Shown: positions 15,067 through 22,164 of the stretch, one piece after another
Position numbering within the stretch: the stretch's first letter is position 1
Layout of the letters: every line of letters begins with the position of its first letter
Assembly: GCF_000939975.1 (NCBI RefSeq)
Contig: NZ_LK391969.1
Coordinates: 2,177,953 to 2,241,952, forward strand
DNA: 64,000 bases
Direction: 5' to 3'
Origin: Pseudomonas saudimassiliensis
GTDB lineage: Bacteria; Pseudomonadota; Gammaproteobacteria; Pseudomonadales; Pseudomonadaceae
Made by a program: the position numbers and the translations under genes
Notes under the pieces: generated by a model
Seen by the model: only the letters and a program-made list of their open reading frames with translations
What the model was told of the DNA's origin: nothing
Database searches by the model: none

Positions 15067-15786
15067 TTGAAGACCGCCCTGTTCCGTCTGCTGAAATGGC
15101 TATTGGTGCTGGGGATTATTGCCGCAGCCGTGTTGACTCGCCCCTGGGACCACATCCCGCCCGAATGGCATCCCTGGCAACCCCTGGCTATCGACCACCC
15201 CATGACGGTAGTGAGCAAATGGAAGCTGGCGCAGCTCAGGGATGATCCCCAGCAATGCCTGGCTGTGCTGGAGACGGCCCCGGATGGCGCCATCGACTAC
15301 CTGGCGCTGGACGACTACACCCCAGTCGCCGGCTGTCCTCTTAGCAATGTGGTGCGGGTCACGCGCACCGGGGTGCGCTTCAGCTCCACCTTCACCGTCA
15401 CCTGCCCCGTCGCCGTGGCCTGGGTCATGTTCGAGCGTCAACAGTTGCAGCCCCTGGCGCAGCAGCATCTGGCTAGCCCGCTGGTACGGGTCGACCATCT
15501 GGGCAGCTTCGCCTGCCGCAATATCTACCACCGAGAGGGTGCGCGCCGCAGTCAGCATGCGACGGCCAATGCCTTCGATGTGGCCGGGTTTCGCTTCGAG
15601 AATGGCGAGCAGGTATCGGTGTTGAAGCACTGGGATGATCAGGATGCCGCCAACAAGTCGGCATTCCTCAAGCAGGCCCATGAGGCTGCCTGTGGTTACT
15701 TCGGTACGGTATTGGGCCCCGATTACAACCAGCCCCACGAAAACCACTTCCACTTCGATGCCAGCGGCTTCGGCTTCTGCCGCTGA
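15067..15786 (+). CDS. Extensin-like C-terminal domain protein (TTG start)
   Basis: This 239-residue protein has an N-terminal membrane segment (LFRLLKWLLVLGIIAAAVL) and a periplasmic extensin_C domain. Hallmarks are paired cysteines (C85-type VAGCPLSNVVRV, SFACRNIYHRE), the HATANAFDVAGF strand and the terminal QPHENHFHFDASG with clustered His. The fold resembles D-Ala-D-Ala carboxypeptidase/LAS metallopeptidases (His, Asp, His zinc site), so a cell-wall peptidase role is plausible but unproved. AGGAGG seven bases upstream points to TTG at 15067 as the start. A strong shared terminator follows. Confidence 0.88.
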   Translation: MKTALFRLLKWLLVLGIIAAAVLTRPWDHIPPEWHPWQPLAIDHPMTVVSKWKLAQLRDDPQQCLAVLETAPDGAIDYLALDDYTPVAGCPLSNVVRVTRTGVRFSSTFTVTCPVAVAWVMFERQQLQPLAQQHLASPLVRVDHLGSFACRNIYHREGARRSQHATANAFDVAGFRFENGEQVSVLKHWDDQDAANKSAFLKQAHEAACGYFGTVLGPDYNQPHENHFHFDASGFGFCR

Positions 15787-15807: not shown

Positions 15808-15835
15808 AAAGCCGACCCGTGGGGTCGGCTTTCTG
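15808..15835. terminator. Bidirectional terminator between extensin-like and polyester hydrolase genes
   Basis: A perfect eleven-base-pair stem (AAAGCCGACCC 15808-15818 with GGGTCGGCTTT 15822-15832) and a three-base loop. The flanks give TTTCT on the plus strand and TTTTCT on the minus strand, so it can end both converging genes. Confidence 0.88.
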
Positions 15836-15848
15836 TTCACTCCCGGGA

Positions 15849-16757
15849 TCAGTACGGGCAGTTGCCGCGGTACTCCGAGATTTTCCGGTCAGACTCGTGG
15901 CGCGGGCCACACAGGAACTGGCTGTAGCGGGTGTCGTTGTCCAGGAAGCGCTTCATCCAGGACACACCGAAACGACTCAGCACATCGTTGTTCAGCCCGC
16001 CGCCGTTGGCGCAGTAATGCGAGCCGTTGTTGATCTCGACATAGGCCTTGTCGATGTCGTTCGGCAGTTGGTTATAGAACGGCGAGGCGTGACTGCGCAC
16101 CGGCGCAATGAGGTCGGACTCACAGGCAAAGATCAGCGTCGGCGCCTGTACGCCGCTGAAGCGGGTGGTATCCCAGGGTGCGAGCGGGATGGCTGCCTTG
16201 ATGCGCCCTTCGCTGGCGACGCGCAGGGTGCCGCCACCGCCCATGGACCAGCCGATGACCCCAAGGCGCTCGGTATCGATCATGCCGTTGACCGGGCTGG
16301 TGCGAGAGCTGTTCTGATCCACCAGATAGTCCAGCGCGTTGTTGATCTGCCGGGCGCGGCTCGGTGGCTGGTCGAAGCCGGTGTTGGTGTCGATGGTCAT
16401 GACCACGAAGCCATGGGACGCCAGCTTGGGGCCCCACCAGTCGATGGAGGACTCGGCAGACACAAACCCGGGGATGACTACTATCGCCGCCATGGTGCCG
16501 GTGGTACCCGTTGGGTAGTGGATGGTACCGCCACCGAAGCCGCTGACCAGCCCGGACACCCGGCTGGTGCGCACGCTGTACGGGCCGCTGGAAGCCTCAA
16601 GGAAGGCTACGGTCGGATCTGGGCCACGTTCATAGGATTGGCCTGGGTTGGTTGGCTCGTCGGTGGGTGGATTGGTTGCAAAGACGGAAGCGGAGAACAT
16701 CAGCGCACCCGCGGCTGCCATTGAGAGCAGCGTTTGGGATAGTTTCTTATTAATCAT
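15849..16757 (-). CDS. Secreted PET-hydrolase-like polyester hydrolase (cutinase-like, type IIa)
   Basis: This 302-residue alpha/beta hydrolase has a Sec signal (cleavage near residue 27, FSASVFA then TNPP). The triad reads S171 (GWSMGG), D215 (ACESD) and H247 (NNGSHYC), with oxyanion residues F98 and M172. Two Cys pairs are expected: C212-C249 beside the active site, which marks type II PET hydrolases, and C283-C300 at the C-terminus. Tyr248 after the catalytic His, instead of the Ser of Ideonella PETase, suggests type IIa. From memory the sequence is close to PE-H of Halopseudomonas aestusnigri, an enzyme shown to hydrolyse amorphous PET film. Natural substrates are probably cutin-like or aliphatic polyesters. 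It is a single gene with TGGAG before the ATG. Confidence 0.93.
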
Positions 16758-17107
16758 TATTACTCCAGGGATAGTTTCAAATTATTGTTAATTGCATATA
16801 CCGCCAAGTGCTGATGTCCCGAATAAGAGAACTTCCATCAACAGCACAGAAGTATTTGAGCTGCTGTCCGGTGCGTCAATGCCGAACCGGAAAGTTCACC
16901 CGCATGGGTTAAGTGCGCGGCGCAGATAGTTATAAGCGCAACCGAACAACCAGATAATACGAAATTAAAACAAGGGGTTATATTTTGCCACATCACTCTT
17001 TCGAGTGATGGCGAAACCACCGCCAATCACATGGTCGCAATACTTGGCGCAATCTTGTTGAACTCCGGAATATCACCGCCTCTAACTCTTCACAGGAGGA
17101 TATGCCA
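16758..17107. other. AT-rich intergenic region between polyester hydrolase and MBL-fold genes
   Basis: This 350-base divergent spacer has no credible gene. It is clearly more AT-rich than its surroundings and must hold the promoters of both flanking genes. It contains a perfect eight-base-pair hairpin with a TTTC loop (CATCACTC 16991-16998 with GAGTGATG 17003-17010), about 100 bases before the MBL gene. The hairpin could be an operator or a leader structure. AGGAGG at 17094-17099 is the ribosome site of the MBL gene. I see no confident -35/-10 pair. Confidence 0.5.
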
Positions 17108-17953
17108 ATGCGAATTCATCATTTGAACTGCGGTTGCATGTGTCCGGTCGGTGGCGCGCTGTTTGATGGTTTCAGCAAGGGGCTGACGGCGAGCCTGGTC
17201 TGCCACTGCCTGTTGATCGAAACGGATAATCACGGGCTGGTGCTGGTTGACACCGGTTTTGGCACCAGCGATGTTCTTCATCCCCATCGGCGGCTGAGTC
17301 GTTTTTTTACCGTATTCAACAATATCCAGTTCGAGGAGCGGTATACGGCGCTGGCCCAGGTCCGGCAATTGGGCTTCGCTGCCGAAGACGTTCGGCATAT
17401 CGTGTTGACCCATCTGGATTTCGACCATGCCGGCGGTCTGTCCGACTTTCCCCAGGCGGTGGTCCATGTCATGCAGCGGGAAATCGATGCCGCTCGCAGC
17501 GCTGGCGGTTTCATCGGCAGCAAGCGTTATCGGGGGCAGCAATGGGCCCATGGGGTCAACTGGCAGTTCTATCAAGCTGCCGGCCAGCCCTGGCACGGGT
17601 TCGATGCCGTACGTGATCTGATCGGCCTGCCTCCCGAAATCCTGCTGATCCCCCTGGCCGGGCATACCCAGGGCCACGCGGGTATCGCCATCGACACCGG
17701 AGACAGCTGGCTGCTGCATGCGGGTGATGCCTACTTCTACCGTGGCGAAATTGGCCAGCGCGAGCGCAGCTGCACCCCGGGGCTGCGCTTCTATCAAACC
17801 ATGATGGAGGCCGACCGCCGCCAGCGCCTGGAGAACCAGCGGCGGCTGCGCGACCTATCGGTGGACCACCGCGGCGAGGTACGCATTTTCTGCAGCCATG
17901 ACGCGGTGGAGCTGGATCAGTTGCGTGCAGGCGCGGCCTCAGGTCAGGGGTAG
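17108..17953 (+). CDS. Metallo-beta-lactamase-fold hydrolase
   Basis: This 281-residue cytoplasmic protein has the MBL motif in the form THLDFDHAGG (H102, D104, D106, H107). The middle ligand His of the classic HxHxDH motif is Asp. Further ligands are the His residues in GHTQGHAG and the Asp in HAGDAYFY. The length and the early segment LLIETDNHGLVLVDTGFGT resemble the AHL-lactonase/AhlD-like branch, but the substrate is unknown. AGGAGG lies eight bases before the ATG at 17108; the ATG at 17102 is too close to that site. It converges on, and overlaps by ten bases, the ABC exporter gene. Confidence 0.88.
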   Translation: MRIHHLNCGCMCPVGGALFDGFSKGLTASLVCHCLLIETDNHGLVLVDTGFGTSDVLHPHRRLSRFFTVFNNIQFEERYTALAQVRQLGFAAEDVRHIVLTHLDFDHAGGLSDFPQAVVHVMQREIDAARSAGGFIGSKRYRGQQWAHGVNWQFYQAAGQPWHGFDAVRDLIGLPPEILLIPLAGHTQGHAGIAIDTGDSWLLHAGDAYFYRGEIGQRERSCTPGLRFYQTMMEADRRQRLENQRRLRDLSVDHRGEVRIFCSHDAVELDQLRAGAASGQG

Positions 17954-19737
17954 TCCTCCGCCGGATCACGGTTGAAACCTTCGGCCTGCATCCGCCACAG
18001 CGCGTCGAACTCACCGCCGCGCTGACGTAGCTCCTGGGGCGTGCCCTCCTCCACCAGCCGGCCATCGCGGAGCACGACGATACGGTCGAAGGAGGCAAGC
18101 GTGGACAGCCGGTGGGCCACAGCCACCACGGTGCGGTTGTGCATCAGGTCGTTGAGCGCGATCTGGATCTCGGCCTCCGATTGGCTGTCCAGCGCCGAGG
18201 TGGCCTCGTCCAGGATCAGCAGCGGAGTATCCTTGAGGAAGGCCCGGGCGATGCCCAGGCGCTGCCGCTGCCCGCCGGACAGCATCACCCCGCGCTCCCC
18301 TACCAGGGTGTCATAGCCCTGGGGCAGCTCACGGATGAAGCCATCGCAGTAGGCCTGGCGTGCGGCGGCTATCACCTCGTCATCGGTGGCCTCCGGGCGG
18401 CCGTAGCGGATATTCTCGCGGATGCTGCGGTTGAACAGGGCCGTTTCCTGCGGCACCACGGCGATTTTGTCCCGCAGGCTGTCCTGATTGACGGTGCGAA
18501 TATCCTGGCGGTCGATGAGGATCCTGCCGTTCTGCACATCATCGAGCCGCTGGATCAGGCTGATCAGCGTGGATTTGCCGGCGCCCGACGCGCCGACGAT
18601 GCCCACTTTCTGCCCGGCCGGAATATGCAGGCTGAAATCATCGAATACCCGGCGCCCGTCGGGGTAACTGTAGCCGATATGCTCGATGCTGATTTCACCC
18701 GCTGCCAGCGCCAACTTCACCTGCGGATCATCCAGCGCGTGGGGCTGCACTATGATGCGCAGGGTGTCGTCGATGGCGCCGACCTGTTGGGTTGCATCCA
18801 CCAGCGCCAGGGCGAGGTCCCGGGAGCCATGCAGGATGCGGAAGGTCAGCGCACTGACCAACACCACGTCGCCAGCCGTCACCTGCCCGTCCAGCCACAG
18901 GGAAATCGCCCAGACCAGCATGCCCCCGGCCATCAAGGCCAGGCAGATATCGTGCAGCACCCGGGCCTTTTCCAGGTACATCCAGCTGCGCCGCTGGGCC
19001 TGCGCCTCATAGCCGATCTCATGGGCCAGGCGTTCGCTTTCCCGGTCCCGGGCGGCGAAGGCCTTGATGGTCCAGACATTGGACACCGCATCCACCAGCT
19101 CGCCGCCCACCCGTGCCGCCTGGGCGGCGAAGCGCTGGTGCTTGGAACGCCCCCGAATGCCGAAGCCGGTGATCAGCACCGCGACGATCGCCACGAAGAT
19201 CACCAGCGCCAGCGCCATGCGTGGGTCGACGGTGAGCAGCAGCACCACGGCGCCGAGAAAGTCCACCACTGGCGGGATGATCTTCCAGGCGAGACCGCCA
19301 TAGATGGCCCCCGCGGCGGCCCCCAAGGCGGAAATGCGGTTACCCAGGGAGCCGGCAAAGTGCTCGTTGAAGTAGCGCATCGGGTGGCCGGTGAGGTGGC
19401 GGAACAGATCGACGCGGATATCGACGACGCTGGCGACCACAGTGCGGCAGCCTAGCCAGCCAGCCAGGCGCCAGAGAATGTTCTCCAGCACGATCAGCCC
19501 AAGAAACAGCAGCAGCGGCGTCCAGACCGACGCCTGCCGGGTGTCCGCGGCCATGGCGTCCACCAGCAGCTTCATGCCGTATTGCACCGCCACGGCGCAG
19601 CCAGCGGCACCGATGACCAGGGCCATGAGGCCGCCGAAATGCCAGGGGCGCGTGGTCACGTAGTGCCAGAGGAAAGGGACTGTACGGTTGGGCAGGGGCG
19701 GCTCCCGGGCCGCTGAATGATTCTGCAGTACGCTCAT
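17944..19737 (-). CDS. ABC transporter, fused permease and ATPase (ABCB/MsbA-like exporter)
   Basis: This 597-residue half-transporter has an N-terminal six-helix membrane domain (residues about 25-330) and a C-terminal ATPase with Walker A GASGAGKST, signature LSGGQRQR, Walker B LLILDEATSALD and the switch His in AHRLS. Such proteins work as homodimers exporting lipids, glycolipids, peptides or drugs. The ATG overlaps the stop of the glycoside hydrolase gene by four bases, so the two are translationally coupled. The neighbouring glycosyltransferase and UDP-galactopyranose mutase suggest it exports a glycoconjugate (inference). Confidence 0.92.
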   Translation of the reverse strand: MSVLQNHSAAREPPLPNRTVPFLWHYVTTRPWHFGGLMALVIGAAGCAVAVQYGMKLLVDAMAADTRQASVWTPLLLFLGLIVLENILWRLAGWLGCRTVVASVVDIRVDLFRHLTGHPMRYFNEHFAGSLGNRISALGAAAGAIYGGLAWKIIPPVVDFLGAVVLLLTVDPRMALALVIFVAIVAVLITGFGIRGRSKHQRFAAQAARVGGELVDAVSNVWTIKAFAARDRESERLAHEIGYEAQAQRRSWMYLEKARVLHDICLALMAGGMLVWAISLWLDGQVTAGDVVLVSALTFRILHGSRDLALALVDATQQVGAIDDTLRIIVQPHALDDPQVKLALAAGEISIEHIGYSYPDGRRVFDDFSLHIPAGQKVGIVGASGAGKSTLISLIQRLDDVQNGRILIDRQDIRTVNQDSLRDKIAVVPQETALFNRSIRENIRYGRPEATDDEVIAAARQAYCDGFIRELPQGYDTLVGERGVMLSGGQRQRLGIARAFLKDTPLLILDEATSALDSQSEAEIQIALNDLMHNRTVVAVAHRLSTLASFDRIVVLRDGRLVEEGTPQELRQRGGEFDALWRMQAEGFNRDPAEDYP

Positions 19738-20882
19738 GGGCTGCTGGTCAGGATGGCGGGTTCGGTGTGGGGATTGAAGCGCACCTGCTGCGCTTGCAAT
19801 TCGTCTGCCAGCCCTTGGTGCAGCGGGCGTTCGCCGTTGGCATCGGGGAAGCCGAACAAACCCACCGGGCAGTGACGGTCATCGGTCCAACCGGGATAAT
19901 CCACCACGGGATAGAGACAGATGCCCTCCACCGGCACGCCTTGCTGCATCGCCAGCCATACCTGCTCACTCACATAGTGCAGCCAGTCGCCACGCACATC
20001 CCCTTCGGCCCCTGTTTCGGCGACCAGCAACGGGCGGCGATACCGATGGTGGATCTCCGCGAGGATACCGCGGAACGGCCGGTAATCCGGGCTGTTGCGC
20101 TCGATTGGCGGCCCGTTCAGATACCACTGGTTATCCGAGTAATAGTTGACCCCGACGATATCCAGGTATTCCGGTCCCCCGCCGAGCCCCGGCCAGAGTG
20201 TGCCGCACAGCATATCCCAGGCCTGGAACTGGGACAGGCGGAAATCCTCGGCCTCGCGCACCGGGCCCGGCCGGTCGTTGGGCGCCACCACGTGGATGGC
20301 CGGATCCACTTGCACGAAACGGGCCCGCGGGTCGACCTCCCGTATGGCGTCGATGGCGGCAATGGTGGCGCGCACCAGTTGATGCTTGAGCTCGAAGCCG
20401 CGGCCCCTTGCCATCGGGTTGAAGTAGGCGACGTCGCCACCCGCCCAGGACCAGAAGGAAATTTCGTTCAATGGCGAGTAGAACGGCACCCGGTCACTCT
20501 CATCCTTGACCAACTGCGCCACCGCTGCGGCATAGCGGGCAAAATGCTCGACAAAGCCCGGGCGCCAGATATCGATGTGATCTGGCCAGCCGTAGTGGCA
20601 CAGATCCCAGATGATCTGGCTACCCTGCCGCTCTGCGGCCTGCAGCATCGGCAGGAAGCTCGACCAGTCATACTGCCCCGGCGTCGGCTCGATCAGGTGC
20701 CAGCGCAGCCCGTCGCGGATGCTGCGCAGGCCGTGCTGGCGCAGCAGCGCGTAATCCTGTTCGGCCCACTGTTCATGACCGGTCACGTCGATCAGGTCCA
20801 GCCGTCGCCCATCGCTGCGCCGGTGGTTCGAGCACTCGAAGCCGCCGAGAAAAAAACTGTCAAACAGACTCGCTTGGTGCAT
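19734..20882 (-). CDS. Clan A-type glycoside hydrolase (GH1-like), function unresolved
   Basis: This 382-residue protein has no signal peptide. It looks like a (beta/alpha)8 retaining glycosidase: likely acid/base E140 in YSPLNEISF and nucleophile E289 in LLVAETGAEG, with a GH1-like beginning FLGGFECSNH and WHLIEPTPGQYDW. It is shorter than true GH1 beta-glucosidases (about 450 residues) and the rest is divergent. It lies between glf and the ABC gene: 25 bases after glf, four-base overlap with the exporter. A role in trimming or remodelling the glycan made by this operon is plausible, and it may also be a non-catalytic or transferase-like relative. Confidence 0.8.
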   Translation of the reverse strand: MHQASLFDSFFLGGFECSNHRRSDGRRLDLIDVTGHEQWAEQDYALLRQHGLRSIRDGLRWHLIEPTPGQYDWSSFLPMLQAAERQGSQIIWDLCHYGWPDHIDIWRPGFVEHFARYAAAVAQLVKDESDRVPFYSPLNEISFWSWAGGDVAYFNPMARGRGFELKHQLVRATIAAIDAIREVDPRARFVQVDPAIHVVAPNDRPGPVREAEDFRLSQFQAWDMLCGTLWPGLGGGPEYLDIVGVNYYSDNQWYLNGPPIERNSPDYRPFRGILAEIHHRYRRPLLVAETGAEGDVRGDWLHYVSEQVWLAMQQGVPVEGICLYPVVDYPGWTDDRHCPVGLFGFPDANGERPLHQGLADELQAQQVRFNPHTEPAILTSSP

Positions 20883-20907
20883 CCAGATTCCTCTTGTGCG
20901 TTGCCGT

Positions 20908-22164
20908 CTAGATACCCTGTTTTACCAGACTACGGGACGACGCCTCGTCCGTACCGGCCCGGGCGCGCTCCTCGATACGCTTGTACAGCGCCAGCGCCTG
21001 GCCAACCACCTGATCCATGTTGTAGTACTTGTAGGTGCCAAGCCGGCCGAGGAAGGTGACATCCTCCAGGCTGTCGGCCAACTGCTGATAACGCTTGTAC
21101 AGCTCGGCGTTTTCCGGGCGCGGCACCGGGTAGTAGGGGTCGCCCTGATCGGAGGGATACTCATAGGTGATGCTGGTCTTGGGGTGCACCTGCCCGGTCA
21201 TGTGCTTGTATTCGCTGATCCGCGTATAGGGCACGCTCTCGTCCGGGTAGTTGACCACGGCCACCGACTGGAAATGCTCCTGATCCAGGCTGACGTGCTT
21301 GAACTGGAGGGAGCGGTACGGCAGTTTGCCGAAGCGGTAGTCGAAAAACTCGTCGATGGGGCCGCAGTAGACCAGATGGTCGTAGTCGACTTCGTTACGG
21401 ATTTCCCGGTAGTCGGTATTGAGCATGACCTTGATGTTCGGATGCGCGAGCATCCGCTCGAACATTCGGGTATAGCCATGCTTGGGCATCTGCTGGAAGG
21501 TGTCGGTGAAATAACGGTCATCGGTGTTGGTGCGGGTCGGCACCCGGGAGGTGACCATCTTGTCCAGTTGCGAAGGGTCCAGCCCCCACTGCTTGCGGGT
21601 ATAGCCGCGGAAGAACTTCTGGTACAGCTCGCTGCCGATCTGGTTGATGACCACATCCTCACTGGTACGGATATGCTCCACCGGCTCCGCGCGGCTGGCC
21701 AGGAACGCCTCCGCGTCAGCCTCGCTGGCCAGGTCCAGTGCGTAGAGCTTGTTCAGCGTGGTGCGGTTGATCGGGATCGGCAGTTGCTGCCCGTCGACCT
21801 CGGCCAGCACCCGGTGTTCGTAGGGACGCCACTCGGTGAAGCGCGACAGGTAATCGACAATGCGCTGGGAGTTGGTATGGAAGATATGGGGTCCGTAGCG
21901 GTGGATGAGGACCCCGGCATCGTCATGGTAATCGTAGGCATTGCCACCAATGTGCGGACGGCGATCCACCACCAGCACCCGCTTGTTCAGCCCGCTGGCC
22001 AGTCGCTCGGCCAGCACGCTGCCGGCGAACCCCGCGCCGACCACCAGATAATCGAAGCCGCGACTGCGCACCGGTACGGGTTCCTTGAGCACACCCGGAA
22101 AGTGCGTGGGGGAAAGACCCGACAGTGAATCATGACCGTTACCGCGCATGGTTACATTGCCCAT
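20908..22164 (-). CDS. glf: UDP-galactopyranose mutase
   Basis: Glf is an FAD enzyme that converts UDP-galactopyranose to UDP-galactofuranose, the donor for Galf-containing glycans. The 418 residues include the dinucleotide motif FDYLVVGAGFAGSVLAERLA near residue 38, HIGGNAYDYHD, RYGPHIFHTNSQ, FFRGYTRKQWG and VPTRTNTDDRYFTD with its conserved Arg, and the C-terminal FLGRLGTYKYYNMDQVVGQAL. It carries an N-terminal extension of about 35 residues compared with typical Glf. GGAG lies eight bases before the ATG at 22164, which overlaps the end of the glycosyltransferase gene by 13 bases. The mutase implies Galf in a surface or secreted product. Confidence 0.95.
   Translation of the reverse strand: MGNVTMRGNGHDSLSGLSPTHFPGVLKEPVPVRSRGFDYLVVGAGFAGSVLAERLASGLNKRVLVVDRRPHIGGNAYDYHDDAGVLIHRYGPHIFHTNSQRIVDYLSRFTEWRPYEHRVLAEVDGQQLPIPINRTTLNKLYALDLASEADAEAFLASRAEPVEHIRTSEDVVINQIGSELYQKFFRGYTRKQWGLDPSQLDKMVTSRVPTRTNTDDRYFTDTFQQMPKHGYTRMFERMLAHPNIKVMLNTDYREIRNEVDYDHLVYCGPIDEFFDYRFGKLPYRSLQFKHVSLDQEHFQSVAVVNYPDESVPYTRISEYKHMTGQVHPKTSITYEYPSDQGDPYYPVPRPENAELYKRYQQLADSLEDVTFLGRLGTYKYYNMDQVVGQALALYKRIEERARAGTDEASSRSLVKQGI

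Follow-up and report, generated by a model that had tools for sequence, protein, structure and literature searches.

The gene at positions 15849–16757 of a Pseudomonas saudimassiliensis sequence encodes PsCut, a known type IIa PET hydrolase with a loop of naturally variable length

The window, a 64,000-nucleotide stretch of the Pseudomonas saudimassiliensis genome (3,344,211 bases in three contigs), carries on its minus strand an open reading frame of 302 codons that starts with ATG and encodes a predicted secreted hydrolase. We refer to the product as PsCut, after the enzyme with which it proves to be identical. Its main features, in window coordinates, are as follows.

15849–16757, minus strand: PsCut gene, putative secreted type IIa PET hydrolase/cutinase of 302 aa (open reading frame; 302/302 match to PDB 8AIS; Pfam PETase, 424.9 bits)
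16677–16757, minus strand: probable Sec signal peptide, residues 1–27, ending in SVFA (translation, by eye)
16242–16250, minus strand: codons for W170-S171-M172 in the nucleophile elbow GWSMG (translation; Ser at 171 in 85/85 homologue rows)
16140–16172, minus strand: loop residues 196–206, two residues shorter than in PE-H (alignments)
16113–16115, minus strand: codon for D215, the catalytic acid (translation; Asp in 85/85 homologue rows)
16017–16019, minus strand: codon for H247, the catalytic His, preceding Y248 and C249 (translation; His in 85/85 homologue rows)

The initial annotation of this gene, which left the strand unnamed, had described a signal peptide, an S171/D215/H247 triad, an oxyanion hole formed by F98 and M172, a Trp (W170) beside the nucleophile and two cysteine pairs, C212-C249 and C283-C300. 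The translation and alignments bear out each of these elements. The N terminus, read by eye without a predictor, resembles a signal peptide ending in SVFA and followed by TN; F98, W170, S171, M172, D215 and H247 are all present; and there are no cysteines beyond the four at 212, 249, 283 and 300, which occupy PE-H-equivalent positions and are predicted to form the two bonds. The triad is kept in all 85 homologue rows obtained from the best 80 of 103 relatives' stretches. A plus-strand frame that mirrors the gene (15819–16724, 301 aa) was judged to be a spurious antisense reading frame.

The PsCut gene appears to stand alone. Downstream and convergent with it lies an extensin-like gene (15067–15786, plus strand; Extensin-like_C PF06904, 189.7 bits), and upstream and divergent from it lies a gene for a protein with a metallo-β-lactamase fold (17102–17953, plus strand); further neighbours encode a maltose-acetyltransferase-type protein, a PF03547 membrane transport protein and an ABC transporter. 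The extensin-like neighbour recurs at 6 of 47 loci (L004–L007, L037 and L046), that is, in close relatives, when scored at ≥35% identity over 60 residues and with some loci ending at contig ends. Between the convergent stop codons, a perfect inverted repeat with 11-base arms and a 3-base loop (15808–15832) looks by eye like a bidirectional terminator, and it is not listed by the terminator scan. Promoter and terminator scans gave no clear signal for promoter-like sites (2, against a shuffled mean of 0.8, s.d. 1.0) or for terminator-like sites (2, against a shuffled mean of 1.2, s.d. 1.1). Elsewhere in the window (19734–22164), two genes lie on the minus strand, as does the ABC transporter: a 382-aa frame that is glycosidase-like by eye but draws nothing from Pfam at 1e-5, and one for a UDP-galactopyranose-mutase-like protein (PF03275, 284 bits); these genes and the transporter possibly form a polysaccharide gene cluster.

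PsCut matches the Pfam PETase family (PF12740) with 424.9 bits (E 1.5e-127), where the gathering cut-off is 28 bits, a profile match that is far above chance. The model is nevertheless a broad one, since among 14 control genomes 6 give matches and 4 of these exceed the cut-off, and the Pfam DLH model also exceeds its cut-off for PsCut (27.6 versus 21 bits). The NCBIfam equivalog for bis(hydroxyethyl) terephthalate hydrolase (NF051441) scores 338 bits, below its cut-off of 520, which marks PsCut as homologous to that family but not a member of it. The breadth of the PETase model and the DLH match are what could recommend a generic dienelactone-hydrolase-like esterase lacking polyesterase character. 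We give that reading next to no chance of being correct, given the size of the PETase score and the nearest sequences in the PDB. A phmmer search of PDB sequences found 179 distinct matches at E ≤ 0.001, and among the best 60, which we examined, the top entry was 8AIS, followed by 8AIT (a cutinase) and then by the polyester hydrolase PE-H (6SBN/6SCD).

The match to 8AIS is perfect, with 302 of 302 residues identical over residues 1–302 (E 1.2e-208), and this identity to a catalogued polyesterase itself speaks against a generic esterase. The crystallised chain, deposited under the molecule name ‘Lipase 1’, has 310 residues; the 8 that extend beyond the match to our 302-residue query are presumably a tag. 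A figure legend and table of one paper identify 8AIS as PsCut of P. saudimassiliensis, EC 3.1.1.1, UniProt A0A078MGG8 (PMC13072011), and the protein encoded here does not differ from that enzyme at any position. A table in a second paper lists PsCut of P. saudimassiliensis, 8AIS, as a ‘PETase’ and gives Avilan et al. 2023, ChemSusChem, as the source (PMC10495362). That entry, as it stands in the table, is the activity evidence for PsCut. In the text available to a literature search for PsCut together with PETase, these two papers and no others were found. PMC12442448 names PbauzCut from the Avilan 2023 work, not PsCut, and its accessible text does not contain ‘saudimassiliensis’, while the accessible portions of PMC13396203, PMC10963241, PMC11596728 and PMC11587651 hold nothing on PsCut. 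Because the sequence is fully identical to 8AIS and PsCut is listed as a PETase, the enzyme must be regarded as already crystallised and catalogued. Thus, judged by sequence, the protein is PsCut, and the find, though genuine, is not novel; the call originally made from the raw sequence was accurate, yet it fell on a known PETase with a solved structure.

Several features bear on the type of this enzyme. The marks of type II PET hydrolases are a pair of disulfides and, near the catalytic His, an extended loop (PMC7031157, PMC12442448, in the text available of each), and their lipase box reads GWSMG, as opposed to GHSMG in type I (PMC12442448, same portion). PE-H, as given in the available part of its description, has the triad S171/D217/H249, an oxyanion hole of F98 and M172 and disulfides C214-C251 and C285-C302 (PMC7031157). 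In PsCut, GWSMG occupies residues 169–173, the four cysteines align with those of PE-H and would form the corresponding disulfides, with one pair (C212-C249) beside the catalytic His, and the alignment reveals the extended loop after that His, a region that is shorter in the type I-like homologue L053 (FAPN---TPNTTIAK). The composition of the extended loop is GGGLNND in PsCut, GGSIYND in PE-H and SGNSNQA in the type IIb homologue L117, and the residue after the catalytic His is Tyr in PsCut and PE-H but Ser in L117. By these features PsCut is a type IIa enzyme, the class to which PbauzCut and PE-H are assigned in the accessible text of PMC12442448. The earlier description of a type IIa PET-hydrolase-like homologue of PE-H therefore agrees both with the features and with the tabulated PETase status of the identical 8AIS protein.

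The initial annotation had also pointed to a two-residue shortening between the nucleophile and the acid and had proposed that it may alter activity on polyesters. The shortening itself is correct. Alignment with 6SBN and the residue offset both place the acid two residues closer to S171 in PsCut than in PE-H (D215 versus D217); the PE-H segment is DTTSYYASRSQAP, and its PsCut counterpart has 11 residues. The proposal that this segment makes PsCut special or changes its activity fared less well, as the same length occurs in PbauzCut and in many other type II homologues and is labile on a tree of the family. Our survey took the best 80 of 103 relatives' stretches, which gave 79 distinct loci and 85 homologue rows, 68 of which were classed as type II by a Cys at position 212. 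Loci L083–L111, copies from the genome search, were left out of both the loop counts and the tree because many duplicate named loci. Among the 68 type II rows from these best 80 stretches, 28 have the PsCut length, divided equally between Psychrobacter (14) and Halopseudomonas-like Pseudomonadaceae (14), and 40 are two residues longer; in the 17 type I-like rows that do not have the type II cysteine pair, the loop is one residue longer than in PsCut. A deletion unique to PsCut was accordingly rejected as an explanation, both the survey and the tree placing the same length in many relatives.

For the tree, we used 69 rows (PsCut and the 68 rows with Cys at 212), dropped the 17 type I-like rows and excluded the loop columns themselves. 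On this quick tree, loop length requires a minimum of 5 changes, 3 of which are forced by the well-supported branches alone. Both states occur even in the eight-row clade that contains PsCut: the loop is short in H. bauzanensis, H. xiamenensis, MYb185 and Ca. P. excrementavium and long in H. formosensis, H. pertucinogena and L009. Functional specialization through the shorter loop, with altered polyester activity or specificity relative to PE-H, has in its favour that the two enzymes do differ in length, in the segment joining nucleophile and acid, and that short and long loops cluster on the tree (as few changes arose in 0 of 500 shuffles), although near-copies cause such clustering too. We consider specialization highly improbable all the same, as PbauzCut and 28 of the 68 type II rows from the best 80 relatives share the short loop, 5 length changes are needed on the tree, and the segment is absent from the five type-distinguishing loop regions in the available text of PMC7031157. 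Those regions, which differ between types I, IIa and IIb, are residues 68–71, 84–87, 97–102, 124–130 and 254–259, and three of the five are near the active site (PMC7031157, same portion). As far as alignments and the tree can tell, the short form of the loop, two residues below PE-H, falls within the ordinary range of natural variation. A broader version of the idea is that the W195–P206 loop changed length repeatedly in type IIa enzymes and tunes the mobility of the cleft, in which case short-loop enzymes (PsCut and PbauzCut) and long-loop enzymes (PE-H and the H. formosensis enzyme) would differ systematically in polyester activity or adsorption; we regard this as highly improbable. Any effect of this natural length variation among type IIa enzymes would be a minor comparative matter, which solved structures for both lengths (8AIS/8AIT and 6SBN) make easy to examine.

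The distribution of the gene bears on what the enzyme may do for the bacterium. Strong homologues (E ≤ 1.1e-128) turned up in 35 of the 36 further genomes from the same genus, the exception being genome G031 (best match 1.4e-12), and weak matches, the best at 1.3e-15, occur in 5 of 21 genomes from other genera of the order. Some relatives carry tandem copies of type II genes: three in H. sabulinigri HyVt-376 (locus L018, 5001 to about 8580) and two each at L017, L019, L031 and L041, with loop lengths alike within each of these loci.

Near genus-wide presence and ordinary neighbours suggest that the natural substrates of PsCut would be lipids or polyesters and that PET would be cleaved on the side. 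In keeping with this, PsCut may well serve as a general extracellular lipase/cutinase acting on lipids or polyesters of natural origin, with no role for PET cleavage in the life of the bacterium. We judge that account quite probable: the extensin-like, maltose-acetyltransferase-type, PF03547, metallo-β-lactamase-fold and ABC-transporter neighbours suggest no plastic pathway, a homologue occurs in nearly all of the other same-genus genomes compared, and the crystallised protein bears the name ‘Lipase 1’. We found no point against it, and it is compatible with the explanation we prefer, namely that PsCut is a type IIa PET hydrolase. The tannase/MHETase profile PF07519 had no match in this genome; as it was equally silent in all 14 control genomes, the result is uninformative on absence.

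We are almost certain that the gene encodes the known secreted type IIa PET hydrolase PsCut, a serine α/β hydrolase (PF12740) of a Halopseudomonas-group bacterium, with the short loop as ordinary variation; PET cleavage is probably a side activity. By analogy with its family, PsCut would be exported by the Sec pathway and probably released by a type II secretion system; the genome contains a type II secretion GspD (573.7 bits versus a cut-off of 351.35). The serine-hydrolase chemistry we propose is standard and established for the family. At a polyester surface, Ser171, activated by His247-Asp215, would attack the ester carbonyl, the oxyanion would be held by the backbone NH groups of F98 and M172, and the acyl enzyme would then be hydrolysed by water activated by His247-Asp215. 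The natural substrates are probably water-insoluble polyesters or lipids.

Two other PETase-family proteins are encoded in the same genome, outside the window. The first, L002 (G000:C1:2843692-2844465, minus strand; ORF 1438–2373, minus), is a close relative of type III PETases, matching HaloPETase1 (9HL5) with 437.8 bits over 267 residues and PmC (2FX5) with 401.3 bits; the genome thus pairs a type IIa enzyme with a type III-like one. The other, L003 (G000:C1:130480-131046, plus strand; ORF 1453–2301, plus), is a third, divergent protein with a Pfam PETase score of 42.1 bits, GHSRG in place of GWSMG and, as its best PDB match, HaloPETase1 (9HL5) at only 117.1 bits.

Among known systems, the closest relative of PsCut with a solved structure is PbauzCut of Halopseudomonas bauzanensis (8AIT), which gives a full-length match of 644.4 bits and has the same triad, cysteines and loop length. 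The homologous H. bauzanensis locus (L004) encodes a protein that is 92% identical to PsCut and keeps four of the downstream neighbours; if it encodes the same protein as 8AIT, then about 8% of residues differ between PbauzCut and PsCut. PE-H of Halopseudomonas aestusnigri (6SBN; locus L025 in strain VGXO14) is about 77% identical to PsCut and shares its triad, F98/M172 oxyanion hole, two cysteine pairs, Tyr beside the catalytic His and an extended loop of equal length, with S171/D217/H249, C214-C251 and C285-C302 of PE-H corresponding to S171/D215/H247, C212-C249 and C283-C300 of PsCut; it differs in having two more residues in the loop between nucleophile and acid, placed after APWDTT. Type IIb enzymes, typified by IsPETase and represented here by L117 on a Piscinibacter gummiphilus plasmid (annotated as ‘poly(ethylene terephthalate) hydrolase’), also share GWSMG and the two cysteine pairs, but L117 is 50% identical to PsCut, has Ser rather than Tyr after the catalytic His and has a loop one residue longer. 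The type III PETases HaloPETase1 (9HL5) and PmC (2FX5) are α/β hydrolases like PsCut, although neither is among the best 60 of its 179 PDB matches, and their close relative L002 likewise matches the Pfam PETase family while sharing 31% identity with PsCut.
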